From Alistipes sp. (lineage in GTDB: Bacteria > Bacillota > Clostridia > Oscillospirales > Ruminococcaceae), in NCBI GenBank assembly GCA_023667265.1, contig JAMPAJ010000006.1, positions 1 through 40,113 of the forward strand: a DNA stretch of 40,113 bases, read 5' to 3'. The notes beneath the pieces are model-generated. The model was not told where the DNA came from, made no database searches, and saw nothing but the letters and a program-made list of their open reading frames with translations. Positions 15,429-39,968 of the stretch are shown here, piece after piece (the stretch's first letter is position 1; every line of letters starts with the position of its first letter). The position numbers and the translations under genes were made by a program.

Positions 15429-15508
15429 GTAAAATGTCAAACAGTTACGATTTAAATTTTCACCGGGAATAATCAGAATGACGCTATTCACAAATTCACA
15501 ATAAACCG

Positions 15509-15537: not shown

Positions 15538-15634
15538 AGTATAAATTGTTAATTTGCTATTGAATTATACGGCAAGCCCGGACTTTTAGGCGAGCTTGGG
15601 GCAGCCAGCAAATATATAATGGAGTGGATGATCT

Positions 15635-18337: not shown

Positions 18338-18364
18338 AAATACTTTGATGAAAAGGATGATAAT

Positions 18365-19072
18365 ATGACGGAGAATGCCATTGTTACAGGCGGCTCAGGC
18401 GGAATAGGGGAGGCTTTGTGCCGTCGTCTTGCCGGTGAGGGATACCATGTGTTCGTGTGCTATGGAAGCTCCCGGGAAAAGTCTGAGAAAATAGCCGGAG
18501 AGATCGGCGGCAGCTCGATTCGGCTTGACGTTACGGATGCCGTGTCTGTTCGGAATGCGGTGGAAACAGTTGGTTTCTGCAAGCTGCTGGTGAATAATGC
18601 CGGAGTTTCGGAGATCGGACTGTTTGACGCCATGCCTGCCGAAAAAAGCCGGCGTATAATTGATGTGAATCTGACCGGAGCTATGAACTGCGCAAGGGCG
18701 TTCCTGCCGGAGATGATACGCAGAAAAACAGGCTGTATCATCAATATTTCCTCTATGTGGGGACAGGCGGGCGCATCCTGCGAGGTCGACTATTCAGCCT
18801 CAAAAGCGGGGCTTATCGGCTTCACCAAGGCTCTTGCAAAAGAGACTGCACCGTCGGGCATCCGGGTGAACTGCGTTTCCCCAGGTTTCATTATGACCGG
18901 AATGAACAGCCGTTTTTCGGCGGAAGAGCTGGAGCTTATAAGGCAGGATATTCCTCTTGGTATTTTCGGCGAGCCTCGTCACGTTGCCGATGCAGTCGCC
19001 TTTCTCGCCTCGGAAAAGGCGGAATACATCACCGGACAGGTGCTCGCGGTAAATGGCGGAATGGTTATCTGA
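18365..19072 (+). CDS. SDR-family oxidoreductase (3-oxoacyl-ACP reductase FabG-like)
   Basis: 235 residues of classical short-chain dehydrogenase. The N-terminal NAD(P) motif is TGGSGGIGEAL, followed by NNAGVSEIG and the catalytic Ser/Tyr/Lys in INISSMWG and DYSASKAG. The end FLASEKAEYITGQVLAVNGGM is typical of FabG-like enzymes. The specific substrate cannot be read from sequence; FabG and sugar/alcohol dehydrogenases share these motifs, and there are no fatty acid genes beside it. The start lies 27 bases after the dockerin gene with AAAAGGATG as ribosome binding site, so it is probably cotranscribed, an odd pairing of a cytoplasmic enzyme with an exported protein. Confidence 0.88.
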   Translation: MTENAIVTGGSGGIGEALCRRLAGEGYHVFVCYGSSREKSEKIAGEIGGSSIRLDVTDAVSVRNAVETVGFCKLLVNNAGVSEIGLFDAMPAEKSRRIIDVNLTGAMNCARAFLPEMIRRKTGCIINISSMWGQAGASCEVDYSASKAGLIGFTKALAKETAPSGIRVNCVSPGFIMTGMNSRFSAEELELIRQDIPLGIFGEPRHVADAVAFLASEKAEYITGQVLAVNGGMVI

Positions 19073-19243
19073 CGCCGAAAATTTTTCAGAACAAGGCAGC
19101 ACAAATCCTGTGCCGAAAATAAGCGCCGCATACTCTGTATCAAGCATGATATCAAACAATGAAATAAATTATTGCCGACGAAATATACTGGTAAAAAACG
19201 ATGTATGAGCTGACAGCACCTGCAAAAAGCGTTAGCGTAAAAA

Positions 19244-19269
19244 AGCCGTTTCGAATTTTCGAGACGGCT
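19244..19269 (+). terminator. Weak terminator after the SDR gene
   Basis: AGCCGTTTCGA (19244-19254) pairs with TCGAGACGGCT (19259-19269) apart from one mismatch; only a loose T-rich tail follows. The stretch 19073-19243 shows no gene. Confidence 0.55.
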
Positions 19270-19294
19270 CAATTATTTGTTGAGTTATAAAGCA

Positions 19295-19351
19295 AAGCTT
19301 GATTTCTTATTGATATAATTGCTTGAAATCAAGCTTGAAGTGTGATATAAT
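19295..19351 (+). promoter_or_regulatory. Promoter and palindromic operator of the XRE-GH44 operon
   Basis: The -35 box TTGAAA (19323-19328) and -10 box TATAAT (19346-19351) are spaced by 17 bases. A 12-bp perfect inverted repeat, AAGCTTGATTTC (19295-19306) and GAAATCAAGCTT (19325-19336), covers the -35 box, and the right copy is itself part of the palindrome GCTTGAAATCAAGC (19321-19334). The position fits an autoregulatory operator for the XRE protein encoded downstream. Confidence 0.7.
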
Positions 19352-19384
19352 GTTTATAGTGAACAACGGAGGAGGGATAATGCA

Positions 19385-20305
19385 ATGTTCGGCGAGAATT
19401 TAGTGAAATTTCGCAAGCAGTGCGGTCTGACACAAGCCCAGCTTGCGCAGAAGCTTAATGTAACGTCGCAGGCAGTGTCGAGGTGGGAAAAAGGAGCTTA
19501 TCCCGACAGTGAGCTGCTGCCGTCCGTTGCTGCTGCACTTGGTGTTACTATAGACCAGCTTTTCGGCTATTCTGCGGTGTATGCAGATCCGGATCTGGAG
19601 CTGATGATAAACGACAAGATACACCATACTGATGAAACTGAACGAGCCGACGTCGTTATGAAGCTGCTGTACTCCGTTATCGGGGCATATACCGAATATC
19701 AGCACTCGAAAATACGTTATCCTGAAAATCTGGAGCTTGAAACATATGCGGAGCTTCGCACTGATCATGAAATGGCGCTGGCAAGACTCAACGAGGACTT
19801 GAAATATTGCTGCTTCATGAAGATCCCGGATGATGGCTTGTACTCATATATAGGCGATACGGAGCGAATGGTAAATCTGTTTGAAACTCTTGCCGATGAG
19901 GACGCATTGAAGCTGATCTGTTATCTTGGCACCGGCTGGCGGAACAGGCTGCAATCCCTGGAATTTATCTCCAGAAATACTGATATTCCGCTGAAAAAGC
20001 TGAGCAGGATAATGGTGCGACTTGACAGACTTGGAATTGTATGGCGTGTGGCGGTGGACGATAAAAGCGACAATACTGATGAATCGTCTATTGTATACGG
20101 CTATGTGAACAGTTCGCCCCTTACATTTATAATGACTCTTGCAAAGTCGCTGACCCAGTATATCCGTTTCCACGACTGCGATATTTGCAGCTGGCAGCAT
20201 GGTCCGTATCATATGCCGGAGGTCAATATTGATAAGCCCGTTCCGCAGGCTGGTCTGTGGAGCGACGAGAATAAAAATAATAATAACTCAGAGGAGGAAA
20301 ATTGA
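19385..20305 (+). CDS. XRE-family transcriptional regulator coupled to a GH44 gene
   Basis: 306 residues. The N-terminal Cro/CI-type helix-turn-helix (about 5-60) reads GLTQAQLAQKLNVTSQAVSRWEKG. A linker follows, and about 155-230 look like a second winged-helix-like region (LKKLSRIMVRLDRLGIVWRV). The remainder is unassigned, with a His/Cys/Trp-rich stretch (RFHDCDICSWQHGPYHMP) and an Asn/Glu-rich tail. The ribosome binding site GGAGGAGGG is strong. Its stop is one base before the GH44 ATG, and its last codons contain the GH44 Shine-Dalgarno, so the two genes are translationally coupled. It probably senses a signal tied to plant-fibre use and controls its own promoter through the palindrome at 19321. 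The effector is unknown. Confidence 0.88.
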   Translation: MFGENLVKFRKQCGLTQAQLAQKLNVTSQAVSRWEKGAYPDSELLPSVAAALGVTIDQLFGYSAVYADPDLELMINDKIHHTDETERADVVMKLLYSVIGAYTEYQHSKIRYPENLELETYAELRTDHEMALARLNEDLKYCCFMKIPDDGLYSYIGDTERMVNLFETLADEDALKLICYLGTGWRNRLQSLEFISRNTDIPLKKLSRIMVRLDRLGIVWRVAVDDKSDNTDESSIVYGYVNSSPLTFIMTLAKSLTQYIRFHDCDICSWQHGPYHMPEVNIDKPVPQAGLWSDENKNNNNSEEEN

Positions 20306-20306
20306 A

Positions 20307-22598
20307 ATGAAGAGAATCGGTTCAATGCTCACTGCTGCGGCTATTCTTGCGGCGTCATTAAGCGCCATGCCGTTTGGCGTAATGGCTGATGACGGAAGCT
20401 ATGCCATGAATGTGACGGTTGACCTTGGCGGTGAGACCAAGGCGATAAGCCCGTATATTTATGGTATCAACGAGTACGGAAAGCAGGGCGAATACGGCAA
20501 GATCACCACTCATTCCGTGCGCCAGGGCGGCAACAGAATGACCGCTTATAACTGGGAAAACAACGCCTCAAACGCAGGCTCAGACTGGAAATACAGTTCC
20601 GACGACAATCTTTCCAGCTCCGACAGACCTGCCGATGTGGCGCAGGTATTTTCGGCTGACTGCGAAAAATATGGATTCGACTATAAGCTGACGACTCTCC
20701 AGCTTGCCGGATATGTAGCTGCCGATAAGGACGGTCCGGTATCTGAGGCTGAGGCGGCTCCGTCAGACCGTTGGAATGAGGTGCAGCTTGTAAAGGGTGC
20801 GGAATTTGACGCCGAGCCCGACCTGACGGACGGCAAGGTCTATATGGACGAATACGTGAACTACCTTGTAAATACCCTTGGCGACTCCACCACATCAACA
20901 GGAATGCAGGCGTACAGCCTTGACAACGAGCCTTGTCTCTGGCATCATACTCACAGTCGTATCCATCCTCAGCCCGTCGGCATGGACGAACTGAGCAGCA
21001 AGTCTATTGAAATGGCTGCCGCGATCAAGAAGATCGACCCTAACGCAGAGGTTTTCGGACCTGCGCTTTACGGCTATACGGCGTATGACCACCTTGCTGA
21101 CGACGATAGCAGCAATGAATGGGAGACAATAAAGGCAGAGGGAAATTATCACTGGTATATCGACTATTATCTGGACAGAATGAAGAAGGCAGAGGAGGAA
21201 ACAGGAACACGTCTTTTGGACGTTCTCGACATCCATTATTACTCCGAATCATGCCGCGTCGGCGATGAGGACAGACTCCAGTCGGTGCGTACGCTTTATG
21301 AAGAGGGCTTTGTGGAGAACAGCTGGATAGGACAGTGGTGTCAGGAGAATATCCCGATACTTCCAACAGTTCAGGCTTCAATTGACAAGTATTATCCCGG
21401 AACGAAGCTCGCTATTACCGAGTACAATTTCGGCGGTGAAAATTCTACCGCGACTATCGCACAGGCGGAGGCGCTGGGCTGCTTTGCGGACGCTGAGGTC
21501 TATTTCGCTTCGATATGGAGCGGCAACAGCTATCAGTATGCCGGAATAAATCTGTACACAAACTACGACGGAAAAGGCGGTCATTTCGGCGATACTCTTA
21601 TTCCTGCAAAGACCGACGATGTGTCTCAGGCGAGCTCCTATGCAGCTATCAACGGCAGCGATAAGGGAACGGTTACAGCTATGCTGACAAATAAGAGCTT
21701 CACAGACAGCGAAAATGCCGTTATCACTCTTGAAAATTCAGATACGGAATATAAGGCGGCAGCAGTTTATGCAGTTTACGGCGATTCTGATGAGATACGC
21801 CTCATCGACATAATCGACGACGTAAGCGATAACAAGGTGAATGTAACTCTCCCGGCGCTGTCCGCAGCTATGGTAGTTATCAGCGACGACGCTCTCGATT
21901 TTGACGGTCTCCATATATACGACCCCGACGCATTCCGCGAGGAATCAGAAGTATACACCGATTTTGAGCTGAACGCAAACGGCTATGTTGAAGTTCCCGT
22001 TACAGACCCGGAGCACCTCTCAAAGGTCATCATCACTGCCGATGTTACTGCGAAAATGGGTTCTTCCTGGGGAAGCGCCGGATGTGCGGTCTCTATCAAT
22101 GCCGTTGACAAGGCGGGTACAAAGTTCTGGACATCCGAGGGCTACAGCCTGAGTCTGGGCAGCGGCTCAACTGCCACGGTAGATTTTGACGGCACATTCA
22201 GCAACGACGGCGAGTCTGTAGAAGCCGTTGTTGCTGACGGAAAGCTGGAGTTCCAGAAGTGGTGGGACGCCTCCGAGAAGCAGGATTCCGGCGACGAGAT
22301 CGAAGTAAAATATACGAAAATTGAAGTTGTTTACAAGTATGACAATTCCCGGCCTGCGACTGATCCGACTACCGATCCTACAGGAACTCCGGATGGAATC
22401 AGGGGCGACGCAAACGACGACGGCATAGTTGACATTGCCGATGCTACGATCATTCTCCAGAACATTGGCAATCCCGACAAATATCCGCTTTCTGCCCGTG
22501 GCGCTGCAAATGCCGACGTTGTCGAACCGGAGGGTCTTACAGCGCTTGATTCTCTGGAGATCCAGAAATTTGACGCGAAGGTCATAGATAAATTATAA
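20307..22598 (+). CDS. Glycoside hydrolase family 44 with C-terminal binding-like module and dockerin
   Basis: 763 residues with a signal peptide ending near GVMADD. About 35-550 is a GH44 catalytic domain with the family landmarks GGNRMTAYNWENNASNAGSDW, acid/base Glu208 in LDNEPCLWHHTH and nucleophile Glu372 in ITEYNFGG, plus a short beta-sandwich. GH44 enzymes are endo-beta-1,4-glucanases and xyloglucanases. About 555-680 is a beta-sandwich that may be a carbohydrate-binding module (a CBM76-like assignment is possible but unproved), then a Pro/Thr linker and a dockerin (700-763; GDANDDGIVDIADATIILQN). The start is the ATG at 20307 with GGAGGAAA; an in-frame start at 20199 lies inside the regulator gene and precedes the signal peptide. 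Confidence 0.93.
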   Translation: MKRIGSMLTAAAILAASLSAMPFGVMADDGSYAMNVTVDLGGETKAISPYIYGINEYGKQGEYGKITTHSVRQGGNRMTAYNWENNASNAGSDWKYSSDDNLSSSDRPADVAQVFSADCEKYGFDYKLTTLQLAGYVAADKDGPVSEAEAAPSDRWNEVQLVKGAEFDAEPDLTDGKVYMDEYVNYLVNTLGDSTTSTGMQAYSLDNEPCLWHHTHSRIHPQPVGMDELSSKSIEMAAAIKKIDPNAEVFGPALYGYTAYDHLADDDSSNEWETIKAEGNYHWYIDYYLDRMKKAEEETGTRLLDVLDIHYYSESCRVGDEDRLQSVRTLYEEGFVENSWIGQWCQENIPILPTVQASIDKYYPGTKLAITEYNFGGENSTATIAQAEALGCFADAEVYFASIWSGNSYQYAGINLYTNYDGKGGHFGDTLIPAKTDDVSQASSYAAINGSDKGTVTAMLTNKSFTDSENAVITLENSDTEYKAAAVYAVYGDSDEIRLIDIIDDVSDNKVNVTLPALSAAMVVISDDALDFDGLHIYDPDAFREESEVYTDFELNANGYVEVPVTDPEHLSKVIITADVTAKMGSSWGSAGCAVSINAVDKAGTKFWTSEGYSLSLGSGSTATVDFDGTFSNDGESVEAVVADGKLEFQKWWDASEKQDSGDEIEVKYTKIEVVYKYDNSRPATDPTTDPTGTPDGIRGDANDDGIVDIADATIILQNIGNPDKYPLSARGAANADVVEPEGLTALDSLEIQKFDAKVIDKL

Positions 22599-22636
22599 TT
22601 ACAGAAACATAGAGATCACAAATATTAAGGCATAAA

Positions 22637-22669
22637 AAGGACTGCTGCAATTGAATTGCGGCAGTCCTT
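22637..22669. terminator. Bidirectional terminator between GH44 and rarA
   Basis: A 15-bp stem with one wobble (22637-22651 with 22655-22669), A-rich on the left and T-rich on the right, between convergent genes. Confidence 0.85.
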
Positions 22670-22674
22670 CCTGT

Positions 22675-23946
22675 TTATTTTAATTCGTTTAAAATCTTTT
22701 TTCTGTACATCAGAGCAGCCTGTTCCTGCTTGTTTTCGCCGAATTGATAGTATACACGATCAGCTAAGGCGTCCGGCAGATACTGCTGTTTTACGTAATG
22801 GTTCGGGTAATTGTGAGGGTACAGATAATGCTGCCCCACAACCTGCGCGCCCTTTCCATCTAAGTGGACGTTCTGCAGATGTCTTGGGAAATCCAGTGCA
22901 TCGCAGCTTGCCACGTCCTCCAGAGCCGCGTCTATCGCCATAACTCCGCTGTTGGATTTAGGCGCTGTTGCCAGGAGTATAACAGCCTCGGCAATAGGCA
23001 GCTTTGCTTCCGGAAGCCCAAGCTGCAAGGCGGAATCCACGCAGGCTTTTGTTACGACAATCGCTTGCGGATAGGCGAGTCCAACATCCTCTGAGGCAAT
23101 GCAGAGCAGTCGGCGGCACAATGAAATAATATCCCCGGCAGCGATGAGCCGTGCGGCGTAATGGAGAGCCGCATTTTCGTCTGAGCCGCGGATAGATTTG
23201 TGCAGAGCCGAGAGAATGTCGTAATGCTGATCTCCGTCCCTGTCGTAGCGCATATTGCTTCGCTGCACCAGCACGGACAAGGTATCCTCAGAAACGACGA
23301 TTTTTCCGTCCGCAGCGTCTCCGCAGACAGCGCAAAGCTCAACAGTATTCATAGCCTTCCGCACATCACCGCCGCATCCGTAGGCGATAGTCCGGCAGAT
23401 ATTGTCGTCCGCCCGTATTTCTAAGCCGTTTTCCTCAGAAAGAATTGCGAATCCACGCTTTATGGCAGGCACAAGCTCATCGGCGGAGACCGGCTTGAAC
23501 TCGAAAACCGTGCTGCGGCTGATAACAGCGTTATACACTGAAAAATAAGGATTTTCCGTCGTTGAAGCAATTAACGTTATCTCGCCGTTTTCGATATATT
23601 CAAGAAGACTCTGCTGCTGTTTTTTATTGAGATACTGTATCTCGTCAAGATAAAGAAGAATACCGTTTTCCGAGCCAAATGTGCCGATTGAGGAGATAAC
23701 CTCCTTGATATCGGCAACAGAAGCATTGGTGCCATTGAGCTTGTGGAGCGTCATACCGCAGTTTTCGGCTATGATTCGGGCGACAGTGGTTTTTCCGATT
23801 CCGGACGGTCCATAGAAGATCATGTTGGGAACAGTACCGCTTTCGATGATTCTCCGCAGCGGTCGTCCCGGGGCGAGGATATGCTTCTGCCCTACAACGT
23901 CATCCAACGTTGCCGGGCGTATCTTGTCAGCTAAAGGTGCGGACAT
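22675..23946 (-). CDS. rarA: Replication-associated recombination protein A (AAA+ ATPase, MgsA/RarA)
   Basis: 423 residues of a clamp-loader-like AAA+ ATPase that acts at stalled replication forks. The Walker A is GPSGIGKTT, Walker B LLYLDEIQYLNKKQQ, sensor 1 in LIASTTENPYF and sensor 2 near CGGDVRKAMNTVE. The C-terminal half has the tetramerisation domain with YPHNYPNHYVKQQYLP. The length is normal. Start choice: the GTG three codons upstream overlaps the AGGAG, so the ATG at 23946 is preferred. An intrinsic terminator for glyA lies immediately upstream with its T-tract touching the rarA ribosome binding site, so rarA depends on read-through or on a promoter not visible to me. Confidence 0.95.
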   Translation of the reverse strand: MSAPLADKIRPATLDDVVGQKHILAPGRPLRRIIESGTVPNMIFYGPSGIGKTTVARIIAENCGMTLHKLNGTNASVADIKEVISSIGTFGSENGILLYLDEIQYLNKKQQQSLLEYIENGEITLIASTTENPYFSVYNAVISRSTVFEFKPVSADELVPAIKRGFAILSEENGLEIRADDNICRTIAYGCGGDVRKAMNTVELCAVCGDAADGKIVVSEDTLSVLVQRSNMRYDRDGDQHYDILSALHKSIRGSDENAALHYAARLIAAGDIISLCRRLLCIASEDVGLAYPQAIVVTKACVDSALQLGLPEAKLPIAEAVILLATAPKSNSGVMAIDAALEDVASCDALDFPRHLQNVHLDGKGAQVVGQHYLYPHNYPNHYVKQQYLPDALADRVYYQFGENKQEQAALMYRKKILNELK

Positions 23947-23966
23947 TATTTTCACTCCTAAAAACT

Positions 23967-23991
23967 CGGGCGGACAAAAGCCGTCCGCCCG
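23967..23991 (-). terminator. glyA terminator abutting the rarA ribosome binding site
   Basis: A perfect 9-bp GC-rich stem (23967-23975 with 23983-23991). On the minus strand it is followed by AGTTTTTAGGAG, the last part being the rarA Shine-Dalgarno. Confidence 0.85.
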
Positions 23992-24009
23992 ATAATTATT
24001 TTACCCTGA

Positions 24010-25266
24010 TTACTTATAAAGAGGGAATTTTTCGCAGATCTCAGTTACGCCGGCACGGATCTCGTCAGCCTTGTTCTCGAAATCAGTTGCGCAGAGGTAG
24101 ATGTACTCAGCGATCTTTTCCATTTCCTCAACGCCGAGACCTCTTGTTGTAACCGCAGGAGTACCGATTCTGATACCGCTTGTTACGAAGGGCTTTTCGG
24201 GATCGTTATGGATAGCGTTTTTGTTAACGGTGATGTAAACCTCGTCAAGACGGTGCTCCAGCTCTTTGCCTGTGATGTTGAAGGGACGGAGGTCAACCAG
24301 CATAAGGTGATTATCAGTTCCGCCGGAAACGAGGTTAAAGCCTCTCTTCAGAAGTCCCTGAGCGAGAGCAGCTGCATTCTCTACGATCCTCTTCTGGTAC
24401 TCCTTGAACTCAGGCTTGAGAGCCTCGCCGAAGCATACAGCCTTTGCAGCGATCGTGTGCATAAGAGGACCGCCCTGTGTACCGGGGAAAATAGCGGAAT
24501 TTATCTTCTTTGCAAGAGCCTCGTCGTTTGTGAGAATGAGACCGCCTCTGGGTCCGCGGAGGGTCTTGTGAGTTGTTGTCGTTACGATGTCAGCGTAGGG
24601 AACAGGGGACTCATGAACGCCTGCTGCAACAAGACCGGCAATATGAGCCATATCTACCATGAACAGCGCGCCAACGGATTTAGCGATCTCGGAAAGCTTC
24701 TTGAAGTCGATAGCTCTCGGATATGCGCTTGCTCCGGCAACGATAAGCTTGGGCTTGTGCTGATTTGCAAGCTCCTGAACGGTATCATAATTGATAGATT
24801 CAGTTTCGTCGTCCAGACCGTAGGAAACGAAGTTAAAATATTTACCGGAAAGGTTTACGGGTGAACCGTGAGTAAGGTGACCGCCGTCTGCAAGGCTCAT
24901 ACCCAGAACAGTGTCGCCGGGCTGGAGTGTTGCGAAGTAAACAGCAGTGTTAGCCTGAGCGCCGGAGTGAGGCTGAACATTGGCATACTTAGCTCCGAAA
25001 AGCTCGCAGGCACGCTGAATAGCGATGACCTCAACCTCGTCAACGCACTGACAGCCGCCGTAATATCTCTTTCCGGGGTAGCCCTCGGCGTACTTGTTTG
25101 TGAGAACGCTTCCCATAGCTGCCATAACAGCTGGTGAAACGATGTTTTCGCTTGCGATAAGCTCAAGATTTCTGCGCTGTCTTGCAAGCTCTTTGTCCAT
25201 AGCTGCGCCTACAGCCGGGTCATACTGTGAAACAAATCCGATAGAATCCATAAGATCGTTATACAT
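24010..25266 (-). CDS. glyA: Serine hydroxymethyltransferase
   Basis: 418 residues of a fold-type I PLP enzyme interconverting serine and glycine with tetrahydrofolate, the main source of one-carbon units. Landmarks: [28 protein letters not shown], the PLP-Lys motif [14 protein letters not shown] and [14 protein letters not shown]. The length is normal and the domain complete. A consensus promoter lies just upstream, AAGGAG precedes the ATG, and a strong terminator follows. Apparently monocistronic. Confidence 0.98.
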
Positions 25267-25309
25267 GATTTTTTCTCCTTAAATAAATTAGAATTTAAAT
25301 ACATATAAT

Positions 25310-25338
25310 ATTATACTATATTTCCATTGAAAAATCAA
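25310..25338 (-). promoter_or_regulatory. glyA promoter
   Basis: On the minus strand TTGATT (25338-25333) and TATAAT (25315-25310) have a 17-base spacer, about 44 bases before the ATG. Confidence 0.8.
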
Positions 25339-25353
25339 TAGGATTTCCAAATT

Positions 25354-26178
25354 TTATTTCCGCAAAAAGCTGTCCCAGGAAATAAACTCCTCAGACGTGG
25401 AAAGCGCGGCGTAATATTGCAGTACAAGAGAGGCGTCGGAGGCGTCGGTCTTTCCGTTTCTGTCAATGTCGCTGCGGAGCATTGTTTCCTCGTCGAAGCT
25501 CTCGCCCCTTCCGGTTGAAATATCGGCGTACATTATCAATATTCTGGAGGCATCGGACGCGTCCACCTTACCATTGCCGTCAACATCTCCAAGATCACGA
25601 AAACAGGTTATGTCATAGGCGCAGATCGCGCGGCTGCTTCCCGGAGGATATATGTAGACCGTAGCCGAGGTCCTGTCGCCGGCAAACGCCTCGTCAGCCA
25701 GGGCTGGAACGGAGGTGCATTTTGACTCGATAGGTACGACGCTGCTGGCGACGATATATTCGCCCTTGGCATTCAATTCCGGCGTCTGTCTCAGGACGGT
25801 TATCGAAACTTCAAGACCGTCGGTGACAATATCGCCAGTGTCGGTGTAGTATTCTGTCTTGGCAGGCTGGCTGTCGCAGGAAATGGTCATCTGCACGTAG
25901 AGCGCCTGCACAGTTATATCTTCGGTTATAGCATCCGGATAGATGCTCCAGGAGCTGAAACCTATCTGAGTATAGTCGTCGATGTGCTCAGTCATAGCTG
26001 AAACGTCGATACCGCTCAGATCCAGAGAATCGCCGTGACCGACCGTAATACAGGTCTCGTTTCCCTTAATGTCCCGTACCGTTACAGTGTGGGTGTCTGC
26101 GCCTGACGCGATGCAGGGCATGGCTGCGGCTACAATAGACAGTGCAGCGGCAAAGGAAATAAACCTTCCCTTATTCAT
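25354..26178 (-). CDS. Secreted dockerin protein of unknown function
   Basis: 274 residues with a signal peptide ending near IASGAD. The middle (about 30-190) is beta-rich without a domain I recognise; it includes an InlB-like start (IKGNETCITVGHGDSLDLSG, then a SWSIYPDAITEDITVQALY pattern). The C-terminus is a dockerin (197-274) with GDVDGNGKVDASDASRIL and SDIDRNGKTDASDASLVLQYY. The start is the ATG at 26178 with GAAAGGAA; it overlaps the stop of the 110-residue gene by 8 bases (ATGAATAA), tying it to the end of the aro operon. No catalytic site is visible, so it may be an adaptor or binding protein. Confidence 0.8.
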   Translation of the reverse strand: MNKGRFISFAAALSIVAAAMPCIASGADTHTVTVRDIKGNETCITVGHGDSLDLSGIDVSAMTEHIDDYTQIGFSSWSIYPDAITEDITVQALYVQMTISCDSQPAKTEYYTDTGDIVTDGLEVSITVLRQTPELNAKGEYIVASSVVPIESKCTSVPALADEAFAGDRTSATVYIYPPGSSRAICAYDITCFRDLGDVDGNGKVDASDASRILIMYADISTGRGESFDEETMLRSDIDRNGKTDASDASLVLQYYAALSTSEEFISWDSFLRK

Positions 26179-32303: not shown

Positions 32304-32332
32304 TTGCATTTTTCCAAATTATGTGTTATAAT
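32304..32332 (+). promoter_or_regulatory. Promoter of the cobalamin operon
   Basis: TTGCAT (32304-32309) and TATAAT (32327-32332) have a 17-base spacer. Transcription should start within a few bases of the riboswitch P1 stem. Confidence 0.75.
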
Positions 32333-32340
32333 AAATAAAT

Positions 32341-32534
32341 GATACGGTTTGAAAAGTTGTAAACTGAGTAGATGAAAAGGAAATCAGGTTCAAATCCTGA
32401 ACAACCGCCATTACTGTATTTGACCCGGGAATTATTCCGGGAAAGAGTATTTTGCCATTGGGACGCACCGCGTCCTGAGAAGGTTCTCTTTTTGCGGTCA
32501 GCCGCAGATCATAAGTCAGGAGACCTGCCGTATC
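32341..32534 (+). ncRNA. Cobalamin riboswitch (aptamer)
   Basis: The conserved cobalamin aptamer pieces are present in order: the P1 arm GATACGG (32341-32347), the core with AAATCAGGTTCAAATCCTGA and ACCGCCATTACTGT, a variable arm (CCCGGGAATTATTCCGGG), and AAGTCAGGAGACCTGCC closing with CCGTATC (32528-32534), which pairs with the first arm. It binds adenosylcobalamin or a related corrinoid and should lower expression of the downstream genes when the vitamin is plentiful. This directly ties the five following genes to corrinoid uptake. Confidence 0.95.
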
Positions 32535-32561
32535 TTTAGGTTTAACGCAGCTTTGGTGAGA

Positions 32562-32617
32562 AGAGTGCAGCCGATTTATCATGCCGGAAATGGCTTTGGA
32601 TCAGTGTACTCTTTTTT
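32562..32617 (+). terminator. Riboswitch terminator
   Basis: AGAGTGCA (32562-32569) pairs with TGTACTCT (32605-32612) with one mismatch, enclosing CAGCC/GGCTT-type inner pairs, and is followed by TTTTTT. It is positioned as the ligand-controlled terminator. Confidence 0.75.
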
Positions 32618-32667
32618 GTTTGTATATTGTCCACGGCTTTGTTTGCTGTGCTTGAGATAATCGACTG

Positions 32668-32696
32668 TACTCGTTCTTAGCGGACGAGTATTTTTT
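32668..32696 (+). terminator. Second terminator before the first cobalamin-operon gene
   Basis: A perfect 7-bp stem TACTCGT/ACGAGTA (32668-32674 with 32684-32690) is followed by TTTTTT and then, within two bases, by the GGAGG of the first gene. It is a second stop signal behind a single aptamer. Confidence 0.7.
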
Positions 32697-32712
32697 ATGG
32701 AGGCACACGGGT

Positions 32713-34617
32713 ATGAAAGGATATTTAAAAAAGCCGCTTAGCATTATTTTATCAGCTTTGTTATTAAGCCAGCCGGTATTTTGGGATTTTCCGGATAATC
32801 AATCAAAAAGGGAATATACAGTTAATGCCGTTGATATCGACGAGGTAGATATTGTTCTGGATAATGTACTTTATCAGATGGCAAATACTGTTACAGAGCC
32901 GAGCTTTGGAACAAATTTCGGGGAATGGAGCGTGCTTTGTCTTGCAAGAGGAAAATATTATTCAAAGGATGATAAATATTTTTCTGATTATTATGAACGA
33001 ATAGTTGAAACAGTCAATAAGACAGTGGCTTCTGTGAATAAGGACGGTGCGCTGCATAAGGCGAAATCAACGGAAAATTCACGTCTTATTCTTGCGCTAT
33101 CAGCAATAGGAAAGGACGCCGAAAGTGTTGGAGACTGGAATCTTATAACGCCGTATAACGATTTTAACTGGATAAAAAAACAGGGCATAAACGGCCCGAT
33201 ATTCACTATTATCGCTCTGGACACGCTGGATTACCAGACTTCAGATCCTACGGTCAGACAGCAGTGTATTGATTTTATTCTTGAAAAACAGCTGGACGAC
33301 GGCGGATGGGCGCTCACGGGAAGCATAGCCGATCCGGATATTACGGCTATGACCTTGCAGGCTCTTGCAGGATATGTTGACGAGCCTCAGATCGCTGACT
33401 CCATTGAAAAGGGTATAGATTGCCTGTCCCGGCTTCAAAGGGAAAACGGCGGTTACGCATCATGGGGAACGATAAATTCCGAAAGCATAGCCCAGGTCAT
33501 AACAGCCTGCACGGCGCTTGGAATAGATCCTGACACGGACGAGAGGTTTGTGAAAAACGGGAGATCTGCCGTTGATGCGATCCTTGAATTTTACGATCCG
33601 GATTCAATGACGTTCAGTCACATAATCGGCGACGGCGGAAATGCAATGGCGACCGATCAGGCTGCATATGCCCTTATTGCATACCGCCGCTTTGTTAACG
33701 GCGAAAATTCGCTTTATGATATGAATGATGTATGGGACGATGAGCAGGATGATGACAACAACGACGTTCCTGATGACGTTATTGACGATAACAACGGTAA
33801 TGGAGATGACAATTCAGATACCAAGCCTGCCCCTGATGATATAAACGTCCCGGACTCTGATGATAAAAACGATACAGAACCGGAAATCAAAGATGATACC
33901 AATTGCGATGATGAGCCGGAAGCAGAAGCTCCGCCGTCATATAACGAGGAGCAGCTCACGGAAAATAAACCTAAGACTACGACTGTAAATTCTCCTGCCG
34001 TTACGGTGAAAAGTACAGTATCCGTCCGGACTTCGACAACAGCTGCGGTAACTACAGCTAAAACCACTGCGACCAAGGCGGTTCAGACTACTGAGCCGAA
34101 GCCGGAGTTTTCTTTCAGGGCGATCTCTCTTTATGAGGGCGGAGATATTGATGTTATTCCGGCATCCAAAAGAGCTGCTGCGATCGCTGTAGACGGAACT
34201 GCTGCCGGGGCGGAGCTGAGTTTCGGCTCCGGAACGAAGAATACTTACTTTTATTACAATGAGGCAATCTCAGAAAAAATCGGAACCTCCGTCTATTTTG
34301 CACTTGTCGATTCAGATGTTGATATGAACGCTTTTGCTGATTCTGAAAATTACACTATCGGCAGTCCTGCTCCGGAAAAGCACCTGGTTTTCGGCGATAT
34401 TAACGGTGACGGTATCATAAATGCCCAGGACGCCCTGATGATACTTGATTCATGGCAGGGAAAAATCACTCTTACTGATGAGCAGATCTTAAGAAGCGAT
34501 CTGAACGGCGACGGAAGAATAAATACTCTTGACGCTATCGAAATATCTGATTTTTTTGTAAACGGCACTGATTTTTCTATAGCCGAATTAATAGCTTTAT
34601 CCCTGGAGGAGAAATAA
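32713..34617 (+). CDS. Secreted alpha/alpha-toroid (transcobalamin-like) protein with dockerin
   Basis: 634 residues with an N-terminal signal segment. About 45-335 are helical repeats of the prenyltransferase/terpene-cyclase/transcobalamin toroid class (LDDGGWALTGSIADPDITAM, RENGGYASWGTINSESIAQ, ATDQAAYALIAYRRF). No DXDD cyclase acid motif is seen, and intrinsic factor and transcobalamin use the same fold to bind cobalamin. A long Asp/Asn-rich linker and a Thr-rich linker follow, then a small beta domain (about 465-560) and a dockerin (561-634; GDINGDGIINAQDALMILDSW and SDLNGDGRINTLDAIEI). It is the first gene behind the cobalamin riboswitch. Inference: a corrinoid-binding half-protein that docks to the cohesin encoded next. 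Direct cobalamin binding is not proven by sequence. Confidence 0.8.
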   Translation: MKGYLKKPLSIILSALLLSQPVFWDFPDNQSKREYTVNAVDIDEVDIVLDNVLYQMANTVTEPSFGTNFGEWSVLCLARGKYYSKDDKYFSDYYERIVETVNKTVASVNKDGALHKAKSTENSRLILALSAIGKDAESVGDWNLITPYNDFNWIKKQGINGPIFTIIALDTLDYQTSDPTVRQQCIDFILEKQLDDGGWALTGSIADPDITAMTLQALAGYVDEPQIADSIEKGIDCLSRLQRENGGYASWGTINSESIAQVITACTALGIDPDTDERFVKNGRSAVDAILEFYDPDSMTFSHIIGDGGNAMATDQAAYALIAYRRFVNGENSLYDMNDVWDDEQDDDNNDVPDDVIDDNNGNGDDNSDTKPAPDDINVPDSDDKNDTEPEIKDDTNCDDEPEAEAPPSYNEEQLTENKPKTTTVNSPAVTVKSTVSVRTSTTAAVTTAKTTATKAVQTTEPKPEFSFRAISLYEGGDIDVIPASKRAAAIAVDGTAAGAELSFGSGTKNTYFYYNEAISEKIGTSVYFALVDSDVDMNAFADSENYTIGSPAPEKHLVFGDINGDGIINAQDALMILDSWQGKITLTDEQILRSDLNGDGRINTLDAIEISDFFVNGTDFSIAELIALSLEEK

Positions 34618-34618
34618 A

Positions 34619-35245
34619 ATGAATTTAAAAAACAGGAAAATAATAATATCTGCGCTTATTGCGATAGGCGTACTTCTGATTGCCGCTGTGATAATTTTCC
34701 TTTGCAGCAGCCGTGAGGAAAGCGTAACGGAGGAAAAATACGATCATAGCGTTCTCATTCTGGAAATGCCGGAACGGTCAGGCATTAACGGCGGCGAGGA
34801 GCTTTCGGTCTACGTCAAGCTTTCAATGCTCGGAGAGGCTTATTATCCTGCCGCAAGTATGAGCATTGAATTTGATCCGGATAATTTTGAATTTACTGGT
34901 CTGATTCAGGGAAATGTGCGTGTGACAGGCGATACGGCAGAGGGACAGGTGCCCGAGTGGAGCGTAAACGTTCAGAGAAGCAGCGAAACAGGCGTCATAA
35001 ACATAATGTATGTCGATGTAAGCGGCGGAAAATACGCTTTTTCGGATAAACTTATGAGCGAAGAGGAAAATATTCTGTTTACCCTCGATTTCCGGCTGCG
35101 CGACGGCGCCAAGGCAGGAGACAGCGAGTTTAAGATCAGAGATGCCGTATTTGCGGCTTCTGACAGCGAAGAGAGCCTTTCTATTTCGTCAGGCACACTT
35201 GAGACAAAGGACGGCAAAATAATTCTGGAGGATCAAAATGAATAA
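34619..35245 (+). CDS. Membrane-anchored cohesin-like protein
   Basis: 208 residues. One N-terminal membrane segment (about 8-29, flanked by KNRK) anchors the protein; its Cys (FLCSS) lacks the small residue expected in a lipobox, so it looks like a signal anchor. Residues about 42-200 follow the cohesin pattern: GEELSVYVKLSMLG, then SIEFDPDNFEFTGLIQG, GVINIMYVDVSGG, ILFTLDFRLRDGAKAGDSEF and ISSGTLETKDGKI. The dockerin gene immediately upstream stops one base before this start, and the lipoprotein gene overlaps its end by 8 bases (ATGAATAA). Inference: it holds the dockerin-bearing toroid protein at the cell surface. The cohesin call rests on strand pattern and motif order, not a database search. 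Confidence 0.7.
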   Translation: MNLKNRKIIISALIAIGVLLIAAVIIFLCSSREESVTEEKYDHSVLILEMPERSGINGGEELSVYVKLSMLGEAYYPAASMSIEFDPDNFEFTGLIQGNVRVTGDTAEGQVPEWSVNVQRSSETGVINIMYVDVSGGKYAFSDKLMSEEENILFTLDFRLRDGAKAGDSEFKIRDAVFAASDSEESLSISSGTLETKDGKIILEDQNE

Positions 35246-36458
35246 AAAATTGAAGATTATCTCCGCAGTTTTTTTCAGTATAATTTTCATATGTCTTGGC
35301 GGCTGTGCAAACACAAAACCAAGGTCGTTAAGCGAAAAAACAACAATTCCCGACAGCGGAATAGTTGAACAGGATATTTTTGAGCAGCTTATATCAGAAA
35401 ATGAAGTAGCTGTTTTTGCAGGAGAGTCCAATGGAATAAGATATGAGTGGACTATATTCGGAAATGATATTCCAGAATCCAAGGCGCTGAATCTTGCTGT
35501 AAATTTCAATGACAGTAAAGATGATAACAGCATATCCTTTGAGCTGTGTTCCGATGAGGATTTCGGGTTCAGACCTATGATATCAATTTATCTTAACGAG
35601 GTATGGGACGCTCAGAGCGCCTCTGTATATTCTGAACAAAACGGCGTGCTTTCGCCTGTGTGCAGCGCTTCAATAACCAAAGGAGAGGTAAATGCCGTTA
35701 ACCTTACAGTTCCGGAAACATACGGCAAATATGTTGTAATTGCTGATGAAAGCAATGGAAACGACGGGACAAACGTCGTCTATACAAAAGCCGTCACCGA
35801 GGTAAAGGAGCAGGTCACTGTAACTACAGCTGCTGTAAGCGAAAAAACGGAATCCGCTTCAAGTGAAGCTGAACAGCCTGACGATCAGGAATTTTACGAG
35901 GAAGAGTCTGAGACGGAAAATGAGGGTGGAAGAGTGTACTCCGACGGAAGCGCGACGGAGCAGGACAAGTATCTCACAGATCCTGTCCCCGAGGGCAAGC
36001 CGATGCCTGTCGAGCCGGAGGATGCAAAAGTAAATGAATCAAAGATACTGACCTGTACCTTTTCGATCGAATGTACTGCGATCCTGAATAATATATCAGA
36101 CCTTGAACCCGAAAAGCTCGATGCGCTTCCCTCTGACGGAATTATTTTTGATATGCAGACAGTTGAATTTAAGGACGGAGAATCTGTTTTTGACGTTCTT
36201 CAGAGAATTTGTAAGGAAAATAATATACACATGGAGGCTTCGTGGACGCCGATTTATAACAGCGCCTATGTGGAGGGAATACATAATCTTTATGAGTTCG
36301 ACTGCGGCAGTCTTTCCGGCTGGATGTACCGTGTAAACGGATGGTATCCGAATTACGGATGCAGCCGTTACCAGCTTGCGGAGGGCGATGTCGTCGAGTG
36401 GCGGTTTACCTGTGATTTAGGAAAGGATGTCGGCTGTGAGTGGATGTCAGGAACATAA
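35238..36458 (+). CDS. Lipoprotein with C-terminal DUF4430 (transcobalamin C-terminal-like) domain
   Basis: 406 residues. The lipobox is LGGC (Cys23). About 45-175 is a beta-rich domain (YEWTIFGNDIPESKALNLAV). An acidic linker (about 190-260) follows, and about 300-400 is a DUF4430 domain with the motifs ESVFDVLQRICKENN, GCGSLSGWMYRVNGWYPNYG-like text (here DCGSLSGWMYRVNGWYP) and EGDVVEWRFTCDLGKDVG. In intrinsic factor and transcobalamin this fold is the beta domain that closes over cobalamin bound to the toroid; here the toroid is on the gene at 32713. It overlaps the cohesin gene before it and the EcfT gene after it, so production is linked to transport. It is probably the membrane-proximal binding or delivery subunit. 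Confidence 0.82.
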   Translation: MNKKLKIISAVFFSIIFICLGGCANTKPRSLSEKTTIPDSGIVEQDIFEQLISENEVAVFAGESNGIRYEWTIFGNDIPESKALNLAVNFNDSKDDNSISFELCSDEDFGFRPMISIYLNEVWDAQSASVYSEQNGVLSPVCSASITKGEVNAVNLTVPETYGKYVVIADESNGNDGTNVVYTKAVTEVKEQVTVTTAAVSEKTESASSEAEQPDDQEFYEEESETENEGGRVYSDGSATEQDKYLTDPVPEGKPMPVEPEDAKVNESKILTCTFSIECTAILNNISDLEPEKLDALPSDGIIFDMQTVEFKDGESVFDVLQRICKENNIHMEASWTPIYNSAYVEGIHNLYEFDCGSLSGWMYRVNGWYPNYGCSRYQLAEGDVVEWRFTCDLGKDVGCEWMSGT

Positions 36459-37350
36459 GTTCAGCGATGAATTTTCAAGATTTCATCCTCTTGTGAATTT
36501 TACATATTTTTTCCTTGTGCTTGCATTTTCCATGACCATAACTCATCCGGTAAGCCAGGCAATATCCCTGATATGCGCCGTTTGCTACGGAATTTCCCTG
36601 TGCGGCTCAAAAGGAGCAGGCTTTTGTATCAAATACAGTCTGCCGCTGCTCCTGATAACGGCGATAGTCAATCCTGCCTTCAGCCATGCCGGATATACGA
36701 TCATCACATATCTTCCGACCGGAAATCCTCTTACTCTTGAAAGCATATTGTACGGCATTTCCTCCGGAGCTATGCTGGCTTCCGTCCTGATATGGTTTAT
36801 GTGCTTCAACAAGGTGATAACATCGGATAAGTTTATTTATCTTTTCGGAAGAATAATTCCGTCGCTGTCGCTGCTTCTGAGTATGACTCTGCGATTTATC
36901 CCGAAGTTCAAGGCTCAGCTGGAGAATGTTAAAGAAGCTCAGAAAAGCCTTGGACGTGATGTTAACGACGGCAATATTTTCCGCAAGATGAGAAAGGCGA
37001 TAACTGTTTTGTCTGTCGTTATTACCTGGTCGCTGGAAAATGCAATAGAAACGGCTGACAGCATGAAAAGCAGAGGCTACGGACTTAAAGGCAGAAGCTC
37101 GTTTTCTATATATCGCTTTGACGAGCGTGACAGGAACGCTTTGATATGGCTGATAGTCTGCGGAGCTTACGTACTTTGCGGAAGTCTGGCAGGAGCGTTC
37201 AGATGGCAGTATTTTCCGAGGATCTACGGAGCTTTTGGTTCGTCAGCTTACATAAGCTTTCATATTGTCTATTTTATGCTGTGTATAACGCCTGTTGTTA
37301 TTAACGGAAAGGAAAATCGTAAATGGAAAAATATTCAGTCAGAAATCTGA
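36427..37350 (+). CDS. ecfT: ECF transporter transmembrane component EcfT (CbrV-type)
   Basis: 307 residues with five to six membrane segments and the long cytoplasmic coupling helices of EcfT. The coupling motif SRGYG appears in ADSMKSRGYGLKGRS, and the earlier coupling helix contains RFIPKFKAQLENVKEAQKS. EcfT links the ATPases to the substrate-binding S component. The start overlaps the lipoprotein gene by 32 bases and the end overlaps the fused ATPase gene by 28, giving tight coupling. The ATG at 36427 has AGGAAAGG nearby; a GTG nine bases later is an alternative. The substrate is taken from the riboswitch and the fused S component, not from this protein. Confidence 0.9.
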   Translation: MSAVSGCQEHKFSDEFSRFHPLVNFTYFFLVLAFSMTITHPVSQAISLICAVCYGISLCGSKGAGFCIKYSLPLLLITAIVNPAFSHAGYTIITYLPTGNPLTLESILYGISSGAMLASVLIWFMCFNKVITSDKFIYLFGRIIPSLSLLLSMTLRFIPKFKAQLENVKEAQKSLGRDVNDGNIFRKMRKAITVLSVVITWSLENAIETADSMKSRGYGLKGRSSFSIYRFDERDRNALIWLIVCGAYVLCGSLAGAFRWQYFPRIYGAFGSSAYISFHIVYFMLCITPVVINGKENRKWKNIQSEI

Positions 37351-39968
37351 GCTTTACATATCCTGAGCAGGCGAAAAAGGCTCTTGATAATATTGAGCTT
37401 ACGGTTGAAAAAGGGGAATTTATCGTAATTTGCGGTCCTTCCGGATGCGGAAAATCAACTCTGCTGCACCATTTTAAATCAGTTCTGTCGCCCCACGGAA
37501 CAGTAAGCGGAGATATACTATTTGACGGGATACCGCTGAGTGAAACTGACCAGCGGAGACAGGCTTCTGAGATCGGATTTGTTTCCCAGTCTCCGGATAA
37601 TCAGATAGTCACCGATAAGGTATGGCACGAGCTTGCCTTCGGTCTTGAAAGTCTCGGCTGCGACACACCGTCGATACGTCGGAGAGTTGCGGAAATGGCG
37701 TCCTTTTTCGGTATGCAGGATTGGTTCTATAAAAATGTTACAGAGCTTTCCGGCGGTCAGAAGCAGCTGTTGAACCTCGGAGCTGTTATGGTAATGCAGC
37801 CCAGCGTCATAATACTCGACGAGCCTACAAGTCAGCTCGACCCGATAGCAGCTTCGGATTTTCTTGCGGTTCTTGCAAAAATAAACCGTGAGCTGGGAGT
37901 AACTGTTATTCTGACAGAACACCGCCTTGAGGAGGCTCTGCCCCTTGCGTCAAGGGCTGTCGTAATGGACGGCGGAAGGATAATATGCACTGGGGCTGTA
38001 AAGGAGATCGGAAAATTTCTTCGTGAATACGATCATTCGATGTTTCTTGCCATGCCTGCGGCTATGAGAATATGGGCTGGCGTTGAAAATGAGGAAGAAT
38101 GTCCTGTGACAGTGTGCGACGGAAGCCGATTTTTGAGCGAGTTTGCTGAAAATCACGCCATTTCAGCCGTACCTGCATCGGATGATCTTGAGTTTAAAGG
38201 CGATGTGGTGTTAAAAGCCGCGGACGTATGGTTCAGGTATGAGAAAGACGGTTCAGATATTGTGAAGGGTCTGGAAATAGCTCTTCATTCCGGAGAGCTT
38301 CTGGCTATCCTCGGCGGCAACGGAACGGGAAAAACAACATCTCTTAAAGTGCTTGCAGGGCTCAGAAAGCACTACAGAGGCGACGTGACAAGCACAGGAA
38401 AAATCGCTGTTCTTCCACAGGATCCGAAAACATTATTTGTGAAAAAAACTGTCAGAGAGGATCTGCTGGAATATTTCAAGGGGAAAAAGCTTCCGAAGGA
38501 AGAGAAGGAGTCCAGAGTAAATATTGTTTCAGAATTATGCCGCCTGGACGAGCTGCTGGAACGTCACCCATACGATATTTCCGGCGGCGAACAGCAGCGT
38601 GCCGCACTTGCGAAAGTACTTTTAAGCGAGCCGGATATATTACTGCTGGACGAGCCGACAAAAGGTCTCGATGCCGAATTTAAGGCAGAGTTTGCGGATA
38701 TTATCGGCAAGCTTCTCGGCAGCGGAAAAGCTGTTCTTATGGTAAGCCATGATATTGAATTTTGTGCGGAGTACGCGGACAGATGCGCGATGTTTTTTAA
38801 CGGAGAAATAGTTGCCCAGGGAACGCCACGGGAATTTTTCTCCGGAAGCAGCTTTTACACGACCTCCGCAAACCGCATAGCACGCCATATCCTTCCCGGC
38901 GCAGTTACAGTAAACGACGTTGTTTCAGCCTGCGGCGGCAAAACGCAAATTATGAATAAGCGCAAATACCGAAATGTGCTAAACCCTGTGAAAACGGAGC
39001 AGAAGAGTGAGCATAATAAGCCTTTGCCGCTGTGGAGAAAGCTTACAGCGGCTGTGTCCGGTATTGCGGCGCTGGGGGTTTTTATGTATGCGGCAGGAAT
39101 AACCGACCTTACTAAAATAGTAAACTCCGGAGGCATGACCGCTCTTGCGGATAAGCAGATCGGAATTTATTCTGTTCTGATAATTTCGCTTATTATTATG
39201 GCATTTTCTGTAGGGCGGCGTTCTGAACTTCCGGCAGGAACGAATCTGAAAGCGGAAAGGGGAGCGCTTGCAAAACGAACCTCCGCCGCAGCTGTTATGA
39301 TACTTATAGCGATTCCCTTGACGCTTTTCATAGGCGTATTTTATCTTGGAATAAAGAAGTATAATATCGTCGCGCTTGCCGTACTGATCGAATGTATGAT
39401 GCCATTTTTTATGATATTCGAGAGCAGGCGTCCGAAGCCACGCGAGCTGGTAGTTATTGCGTCGCTGTGCGCTATCGGAGTTGCAGGACGGGCGGCATTT
39501 TTCATGCTGCCGCAGTTCAAGCCCGTCATGGCGCTTACAATTATCGCAGGAGTTGCTTTTGGCGGAGAGACCGGCTTTCTTGTCGGCGCTGTAACAATGC
39601 TTGCGTCAAACGTATTGTTTTCACAGGGGCCATGGACGCCCTGGCAGATGTTCAGCATGGGAATAATCGGATTTATTGCAGGAGTTCTTTTCCGGAAAGG
39701 CTTCCTGAGCAGAAGCAGAGCGTCATTATGTATTTTCGGCGCATTATCGGCAATTGTAATATACGGAGGTATCATGAATCCTGCGTCGGCTCTGATATGG
39801 AGCACGGAGTCGATAAATAAAAATGTCATCATTGCCTATTACCTGACAGGATTTCCTATGGACTGTATCCATGCATTTGCAACTGTATTTTTCCTGTATT
39901 TTGCAGCCGAGCCTATGCTTGAAAAACTGGACAGGATAAAAGTGAAATATGGATTGAACGAAAATTGA
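37323..39968 (+). CDS. Fused ECF transporter: two EcfA ATPases plus CbrT-type cobalamin S component
   Basis: 881 residues in three parts. ATPase 1 (about 1-235): Walker A GPSGCGKST, signature LSGGQKQLLNLG, Walker B VIILDEPTSQLDP. ATPase 2 (about 295-525): GGNGTGKTT, ISGGEQQRAALAKVLLSEP, ILLLDEPTKGLD. The C-terminal part (about 565-870) has six or more membrane segments, an extra N-terminal pair, and the CbrT-family hallmark around RELVVIASLCAIGVAGRAAF, MLPQFKPVMALTIIAGVAFG and SQGPWTPWQMFSMG. CbrT is the cobalamin-specific S component of ECF transporters, so ATP hydrolysis would drive corrinoid import. Having both ATPases and the S component in one chain is unusual, since S components are normally separate. 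It overlaps ecfT, completing the riboswitch operon. Confidence 0.92.
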   Translation: MEKYSVRNLSFTYPEQAKKALDNIELTVEKGEFIVICGPSGCGKSTLLHHFKSVLSPHGTVSGDILFDGIPLSETDQRRQASEIGFVSQSPDNQIVTDKVWHELAFGLESLGCDTPSIRRRVAEMASFFGMQDWFYKNVTELSGGQKQLLNLGAVMVMQPSVIILDEPTSQLDPIAASDFLAVLAKINRELGVTVILTEHRLEEALPLASRAVVMDGGRIICTGAVKEIGKFLREYDHSMFLAMPAAMRIWAGVENEEECPVTVCDGSRFLSEFAENHAISAVPASDDLEFKGDVVLKAADVWFRYEKDGSDIVKGLEIALHSGELLAILGGNGTGKTTSLKVLAGLRKHYRGDVTSTGKIAVLPQDPKTLFVKKTVREDLLEYFKGKKLPKEEKESRVNIVSELCRLDELLERHPYDISGGEQQRAALAKVLLSEPDILLLDEPTKGLDAEFKAEFADIIGKLLGSGKAVLMVSHDIEFCAEYADRCAMFFNGEIVAQGTPREFFSGSSFYTTSANRIARHILPGAVTVNDVVSACGGKTQIMNKRKYRNVLNPVKTEQKSEHNKPLPLWRKLTAAVSGIAALGVFMYAAGITDLTKIVNSGGMTALADKQIGIYSVLIISLIIMAFSVGRRSELPAGTNLKAERGALAKRTSAAAVMILIAIPLTLFIGVFYLGIKKYNIVALAVLIECMMPFFMIFESRRPKPRELVVIASLCAIGVAGRAAFFMLPQFKPVMALTIIAGVAFGGETGFLVGAVTMLASNVLFSQGPWTPWQMFSMGIIGFIAGVLFRKGFLSRSRASLCIFGALSAIVIYGGIMNPASALIWSTESINKNVIIAYYLTGFPMDCIHAFATVFFLYFAAEPMLEKLDRIKVKYGLNEN

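Follow-up and report, generated by a model that had tools for sequence, protein, structure and literature searches.

The window analysed here, the whole of contig C42 (JAMPAJ010000006.1, 40,113 nucleotides) from a draft genome of 2.57 Mb assembled into 45 contigs (GCA_023667265.1), carries on its forward strand a cobalamin riboswitch followed by five closely spaced genes for a toroid-dockerin protein, a membrane-anchored cohesin, a DUF4430 lipoprotein and the parts of an energy-coupling factor (ECF) transporter. We propose that these genes probably constitute a cobalamin-controlled corrinoid uptake operon, in which a split transcobalamin-like binder is joined at the membrane by a dedicated cohesin-dockerin pair. 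The arrangement of five tightly coupled genes had been described in an earlier note made from the DNA letters, and the open reading frames lie where that note placed them, with stop-to-next-start spacings of +1, -8, -32 and -28 nucleotides. The features of the operon are as follows.

32328..32546 (+): cobalamin riboswitch aptamer, RF00174 (cmscan 77.8 bits, gathering score 31.5, E 1.1e-17)
32667..32691 (+): terminator-like hairpin followed by a T run, a possible riboswitch expression platform (consensus scan)
32713..34617 (+): toroid-dockerin protein, 634 amino acids, signal peptide-like start by eye (open reading frame, Pfam)
32842..33747 (+): alpha/alpha toroid domain of this protein (AlphaFold2 (AF2), Foldseek, 17-row alignment)
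34393..34542 (+): type I dockerin of this protein, with NAQDAL motif (Pfam, 42.6, 44.5 and 46.3 bits, cut-off 22.9)
34619..35245 (+): membrane-anchored cohesin, 208 amino acids, hydrophobic N-terminal segment, cohesin match at 34775-35176 (open reading frame, Pfam)
35238..36458 (+): DUF4430 lipoprotein, 406 amino acids, transcobalamin-like beta domain at 36177-36410 (Pfam, 64.5 bits)
36427..37350 (+): EcfT, CbiQ family (Pfam CbiQ, 41.9 bits, cut-off 25, E 1.2e-10)
37323..39968 (+): EcfA-EcfA-S fusion, 881 amino acids, CbrT-like S part at 39393-39965 (TIGR04520, 330.1 bits, cut-off 315)

The aptamer, already recognized in the earlier note, is the sole Rfam match above gathering score within the window. 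The hairpin downstream of it ends 21 nucleotides before the first start codon and is argued for by this position alone, because the count of terminator-like sites in the region (11) is near that in shuffles (8.6, standard deviation 3.5).

Matches to Pfam, TIGR04520 and 6fnp_A bear out the families first assigned by inspection to the toroid-dockerin, DUF4430, EcfT and EcfA-EcfA-CbrT genes. The DUF4430 domain is well above its Pfam cut-off (23.8 bits, E 1.2e-17), and a lipobox-like LGGC was read by eye in the same protein. The 881-residue fusion contains two ABC_tran stretches and matches to ECF S-component models of Pfam, and its S part matches 6fnp_A (182 amino acids, named 'Membrane protein') with an E of 1.4e-6 over query residues 17-191. 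The available portion of PMC5997447 describes 6FNP as the ECF-CbrT vitamin B12 importer, and the match and chain length indicate that chain A would be CbrT. By its sequence, the operon encodes a CbrT-type ECF transporter composed of EcfT, two EcfA domains and a CbrT-homologous S component, for which cobalamin transport is predicted.

The model of the toroid domain has a predicted local distance difference test score (pLDDT) of 91.9 and a predicted template modelling score (pTM) of 0.92, and its Foldseek matches include a squalene-hopene cyclase (E 9.7e-6) and transcobalamin (2v3n, E 3.0e-4). Pfam recognizes Dockerin_1 (E 7e-11) and SQHop_cyclase_C (E 4.2e-6, 26.5 bits, cut-off 26.1) in the 634-residue protein, both calcium loops of the dockerin follow the usual pattern, and no carbohydrate-active or carbohydrate-binding Pfam match was obtained. 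A sequence search of the PDB with the toroid returned terpene cyclases and their kin only (16 rows), and the DUF4430 alignment, from which L030 was excluded for an internal stop, returned a single PDB match at E 0.2. Unlike in one-chain transcobalamin-like proteins, the toroid and the beta domain of the window operon reside on separate proteins.

The window cohesin scores 22.6 bits against PF00963, under the curated cut-off of 24.1, and an alignment of the cohesins gave no PDB match at E<=0.01. All 24 members of its family match PF00963 at E<=0.01 (best 1.9e-9), operon cohesins over the Pfam cut-off include those of G252, G253 and G163, and the predicted fold of the relative at L050 is that of a cohesin. 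These family-wide matches and the L050 fold settle the identity of a protein that the earlier note had called cohesin-like. In a quick tree, the 24 operon cohesin rows form one group (Shimodaira-Hasegawa-like approximate likelihood ratio test (SH-aLRT) 99) apart from six other host cohesin domains, among which row L015 held masked letters; because the tree has long branches, we lean only on this operon-cohesin group.

A connection to B12 is also seen beyond the operon. The window genome has only two toroid proteins of this family, and the two cobalamin riboswitches found in it lie ahead of them, one each. The second protein, listed here with its riboswitch, has no dockerin match, and no importer genes were seen in the 12 kb read around it.

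L084:8889-11417 (-), on G000:C45: second toroid protein, DUF4430 + cadherin-like + toroid, 842 amino acids (profile/Pfam)
L084:11771-11986 (-): riboswitch of the second toroid protein

The window genome further encodes a MetH-like protein with a B12-binding domain (named by eye), and none of 15 tested genomes, the window genome among them, gave a CbiD match. B12 would thus seem to be required but not synthesized. Of ten genomes tested for a B12-binding domain, nine gave one and G249 did not. In G163, the operon adjoins genes for a URO-D methyltransferase, a corrinoid protein, a PocR sensor domain, DUF2284 and RACo.

Recurrence of the dockerin-cohesin pair

An ortholog of the operon cohesin was found in the window genome and G163 only among 247 sampled genomes of the family, and in four of 394 genomes sampled from the order, which span three families; G076 (E 6.9e-4) was rejected as an ortholog, being a different protein with a dockerin-like end by eye. 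A pattern scan of genome contigs yielded 27 loci (L027-L053), among them that of G163 (L028, same contig). All 27 are metagenome assemblies by title, mostly of uncultured hindgut Clostridia, and 21 of the titles name the rectum, colon or caecum of deer, cattle, goat or sheep. Because they were retrieved with a cohesin query, these loci show the companions of the cohesin and not the frequency of toroid-dockerin proteins.

Much the same gene order as that for which the earlier note had suggested a genome survey recurs in this set. In 25 of the 27 loci, the gene immediately before the cohesin encodes a dockerin, and this recurrence leads us to set aside a chance neighbourhood. DUF4430 lies downstream of the cohesin in all 27 (cut or partial in L038, L041 and L049), EcfT is present in 24, and the exceptions to the gene order are three contig ends (L038, L049 and L039, which has no upstream sequence where the dockerin would be) and the odd locus L041. 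Of 19 loci whose upstream sequence was searched, 16 gave a cobalamin riboswitch; in the other three (L030, L044 and L049), about 720 bases or fewer precede the toroid gene. The G163 contig ends within the toroid gene. At L041, at about 10001-11674 (+), the cohesin is joined to part of DUF4430 and then to the last stretch of the S part in the absence of a toroid, which perhaps reflects a deletion or misassembly. A gene of 179-180 amino acids directly follows the EcfA-EcfA-S gene in L044, L045 and L046 and is DUF2284 by Pfam in L046.

The first protein of the relatives, where complete or nearly so, has 889-1104 amino acids and runs from a signal peptide-like start through an N-terminal beta domain, the toroid, an internal cohesin-like domain and a beta-rich module to the dockerin. 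The N-terminal beta domain is DUF4430-like in L035, L040, L044, L045 and L046. The internal cohesin-like domain of L027 (L027:7871-8338) scores 26.3 bits, over the Pfam cut-off, and can be aligned in 15 rows (L027 and 14 relatives); in the quick tree, the internal cohesins group apart from the membrane cohesins. The window protein is a short form with neither the N-terminal beta domain nor the internal cohesin, and the membrane cohesin is therefore the sole cohesin of the window operon.

Dockerins and cohesins were sought in each of the 27 genomes; nine hold a single dockerin match, and the other 18 hold 2 to 97. In five of these nine (G247, G255, G262, G263 and G268), every cohesin match lies inside the operon, and the sole dockerin is the operon's own, since the operon dockerin exceeds the cut-off. 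The window genome holds a cellulosome-type set of 82 dockerin matches (80 genome dockerins, the operon's own and C42:22404) and 7 cohesin matches. The motif NAQDAL, which includes loop positions that we take to contact the cohesin in type I dockerins, is present in one of these 82 dockerins, that of the operon, although several others could be compared over the matched part only. It is also present in all 25 operon dockerins found elsewhere and shows no variation across the 26 rows compared. The operon cohesin is lacking from three genus-mates that have 9 to 11 cohesin matches. Within the window itself, four further dockerin matches of other kinds lie at 12914, 18161, 22404 and 25414 (range 12914-25593).

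One-chain relatives and a second toroid-dockerin/cohesin pair

A toroid match was obtained in 66 other genomes of the family, and 17 loci were read (L085-L101), of which L093, L098 and L100 are left out of the architecture counts, and at L101 an overlapping frame on the opposite strand took the place of the toroid gene among the open reading frames. In several of these contrast loci, the toroid was recognised by an in-house profile and weakly or not at all by Pfam. DUF4430 precedes the toroid in one chain at six loci (L085-L088, L090 and L099), each with a further DUF4430 protein nearby and importer genes alongside, while at L091, L095, L096 and L097 a toroid-DUF4430 fusion in the order of intrinsic factor lies beside a CbiQ-family EcfT. 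The L091 fusion (L091:2125-4113, +) belongs to the window's own genus and precedes EcfT and EcfA. A gene of 324 amino acids without clear family precedes this fusion, and genes of similar size occur in L095-L097. EcfT is confirmed by Pfam in L087, L090, L091, L095, L096 and L097; the EcfT candidate of L085 has no Pfam match, and the other importer genes of the control loci were named by eye. Comparison of fused with split loci thus indicates that the coupled and one-chain forms precede the same kind of importer. Riboswitches were found in 8 of the 16 other toroid loci searched, three of the eight barely above cut-off.

A further locus presents a toroid-dockerin protein and a cohesin in a different configuration. 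At L094 (G150, genus g51; 5674-9996, -), a toroid protein carries a dockerin of another kind (55.6 bits), and the product of the next gene, of 960 residues, contains a Pfam cohesin (27.4 bits) together with two DUF4430-like repeats, which were seen by eye and in one case weakly by profile. A cobalamin riboswitch (11363-11548, -, 115.6 bits) lies one gene upstream, with ECF-type ATPase genes further upstream. In the quick tree, the L094 cohesin sits on a long branch separate from the operon group, and the arrangement appears to have arisen here a second time, with the cohesin placed on the beta-domain protein itself. The operon-cohesin profile misses this Pfam cohesin; Pfam was therefore run on the toroid and DUF4430 proteins from ten control loci and found no cohesin or dockerin in them at E<=0.01.

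Proposed mechanism and alternatives

In the mechanism that we propose, low B12 would allow the riboswitch to permit expression of the operon, as suggested by the class of the riboswitch and by the hairpin that precedes the first start codon. The secreted toroid protein would then dock through its C-terminal dockerin onto the membrane-anchored cohesin, bringing it to face the DUF4430 lipoprotein, and the toroid (alpha) and DUF4430 (beta) would hold the corrinoid between them as in transcobalamin, which is what knowledge of these families predicts. The corrinoid would be handed to the CbrT-like S component, with import driven by the EcfT-EcfA module. The coupler would stand in for the peptide linkage between alpha and beta in the protein of the genus-mate. 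That dockerin and cohesin serve corrinoid capture, as the earlier note had suggested, is supported at the level of sequence by the recurrence of the pair, the five one-dockerin genomes, the private motif, the fusion in the same genus and the L094 pair.

Several observations weigh against this proposal. Three of the one-dockerin genomes (G248, G249 and G267) each hold one more cohesin elsewhere, the one dockerin of G261 lies on another contig and its operon is the odd L041 locus, and these are draft genomes, so that absences are not proof. The six other cohesin matches of the window genome could compete for the operon dockerin, and a model of a read-through dockerin-cohesin fusion reached a pTM of 0.52, with no confident interface. 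Taken alone, the window cohesin scores below the Pfam cut-off. The toroid fold is unspecific, with squalene-hopene cyclase outranking transcobalamin in Foldseek and no transcobalamin among the 50 rows of the VIA list for the toroid. Finally, the related importer operons of the ten control loci manage without a cohesin or dockerin module in their toroid and DUF4430 proteins.

The proposed coupling may extend further in the relatives, where the dockerin of one toroid protein would bind the internal cohesin of the next, forming a string rooted on the membrane cohesin. We regard such chain assembly as a tentative idea with a minority chance of being correct. The relatives' toroid proteins do carry both an internal cohesin-like domain and a dockerin, and the only two cohesin matches of G247 and G255 are the membrane and the internal one. 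However, the internal cohesins group apart from the membrane ones, so that one dockerin would have to bind both, and the majority of the internal domains score under the Pfam cut-off or escape it altogether, one of ten whole proteins being listed, at 17.9 bits. The window protein is without an internal cohesin, and its species would have lost the domain and retained the root only. With the same reserve, we use the term 'corrinosome' for an arrangement in which relatives' units might link head-to-tail into a calcium-dependent string of B12-binding heads that feeds the DUF4430 lipoprotein and the ECF importer. If true, this would be a cohesin-dockerin polymer assembly that harvests a vitamin outside any cellulosome, and the window species would have its shortest form, with one head on the root.

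A more restrictive view accepts that the operon imports corrinoid and holds that the dockerin and cohesin are inert remnants, or merely retain the protein in the envelope, with no help to transport. The ten control loci, which have importer genes beside toroid and DUF4430 proteins free of Pfam cohesins and dockerins, favour this view. We nevertheless consider it unlikely, as both modules are retained together in 25 of 27 loci, the dockerin motif does not vary in any of the 26 rows and a further genus has a toroid-dockerin/cohesin pair of its own.

Less likely still is that the pair is a passenger of the cellulosome, with the operon dockerin plugging into scaffoldin cohesins and the operon cohesin gathering cellulosomal enzymes at the membrane. 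With 82 dockerin and 7 cohesin matches, the window genome does offer other partners. Against this stand the presence of the operon in genomes with one dockerin and no other cohesin found, the absence of NAQDAL from the genome's 81 other dockerin matches, the separate grouping of the operon cohesins and the three genus-mates that, despite 9 to 11 cohesin matches, are without the operon cohesin. The one-dockerin genomes and the private motif lead us to set this explanation aside. That the toroid and DUF4430 proteins bind a non-corrinoid ligand is the least credible alternative, since, although the best structural matches of the toroid are terpene cyclases, cobalamin riboswitches occur at 16 of 19 operon loci and 8 of 16 other toroid loci searched, the S part is CbrT-like and corrinoid methyl-transfer genes lie beside the G163 operon.

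Comparison with known systems

Human intrinsic factor and transcobalamin consist of a toroid alpha domain and a DUF4430-like beta domain in one polypeptide. In the window operon, the corresponding domains occupy two polypeptides, which a coupler apparently joins. Cohesin-dockerin pairs are best known for coupling the parts of polysaccharide-degrading complexes, and we know of no earlier use of such a pair in nutrient import for which the ligand class, riboswitch and importer could be named.

Within the open PMC literature, titles and the beginnings of abstracts revealed no link between cohesin-dockerin pairs and cobalamin uptake, and in some papers that contain both terms they appear in separate contexts in the portions available. 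Other uses of cohesin-dockerin pairs have been suggested, according to the available portions of PMC4300822 and PMC10553843. The capture principle itself is older, as transcobalamin-like capture beside CbiO and CbiQ was predicted in 2007 (PMC1796856, from the accessible part of the text). In that part, Burroughs et al. describe transcobalamin-like proteins of bacteria, which commonly carry a fused toroid and are encoded alongside CbiO and CbiQ, as predicted B12 scavengers that may form surface complexes, in hosts usually without key B12 synthesis enzymes; the words 'cohesin' and 'dockerin' occur nowhere in their text. Like these SLBB proteins, the products of the window operon combine a toroid with a transcobalamin-like beta-grasp domain (DUF4430 here), appear to be secreted and are encoded in predicted operons with CbiO/CbiQ; unlike them, they place alpha and beta on two proteins and add a cohesin-dockerin pair (PMC1796856, same portion). 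Given the 2007 prediction, the new part is the mode of assembly. We judge the reading of the earlier note largely right, with cohesin-dockerin assembly as the new element of the predicted Gram-positive transcobalamin-like ECF capture, and with the binding of dockerin to cohesin and of corrinoid to either protein both inferred.

The predicted intrinsic-factor-like capture of Gram-positive bacteria thereby gains a testable architecture, in gut bacteria that apparently need B12 and, by the CbiD marker, do not make it. The occurrence of fused and split forms within one genus suggests a route by which a one-chain binder may be split and rejoined by a coupler.

Among characterized importers, ECF-CbrT of Lactobacillus delbrueckii resembles the window system in an S component homologous to 6fnp_A that works with EcfT and EcfA, and differs in that the S component and two EcfA domains form a single protein here and that an EcfT is encoded in the operon itself; no extracytoplasmic capture protein is mentioned for the L. 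delbrueckii system in the available portion of its description (PMC5997447). BtuG of Bacteroides is likewise a surface protein that captures B12 for an importer, but it is a beta-propeller that works with BtuB, and the accessible text mentions no toroid or DUF4430 (PMC6977713). With the ruminococcal cellulosome and amylosome, as portrayed in the available parts of PMC6118326 and PMC4300822, the window operon shares the cohesin fold, the dockerin with two calcium loops and surface anchoring through a cohesin. Unlike in the ruminococcal cellulosome of these same excerpts (PMC6118326, PMC4300822), the dockerin here bears a transcobalamin-like toroid rather than a carbohydrate enzyme, and the operon also occurs in genomes in which no other cohesin or dockerin was found. 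The operon dockerin is moreover unlike the other dockerins of its host (NAQDAL in 1 of 82), and the operon would offer a new cohesin-dockerin pair outside the cellulosome set.

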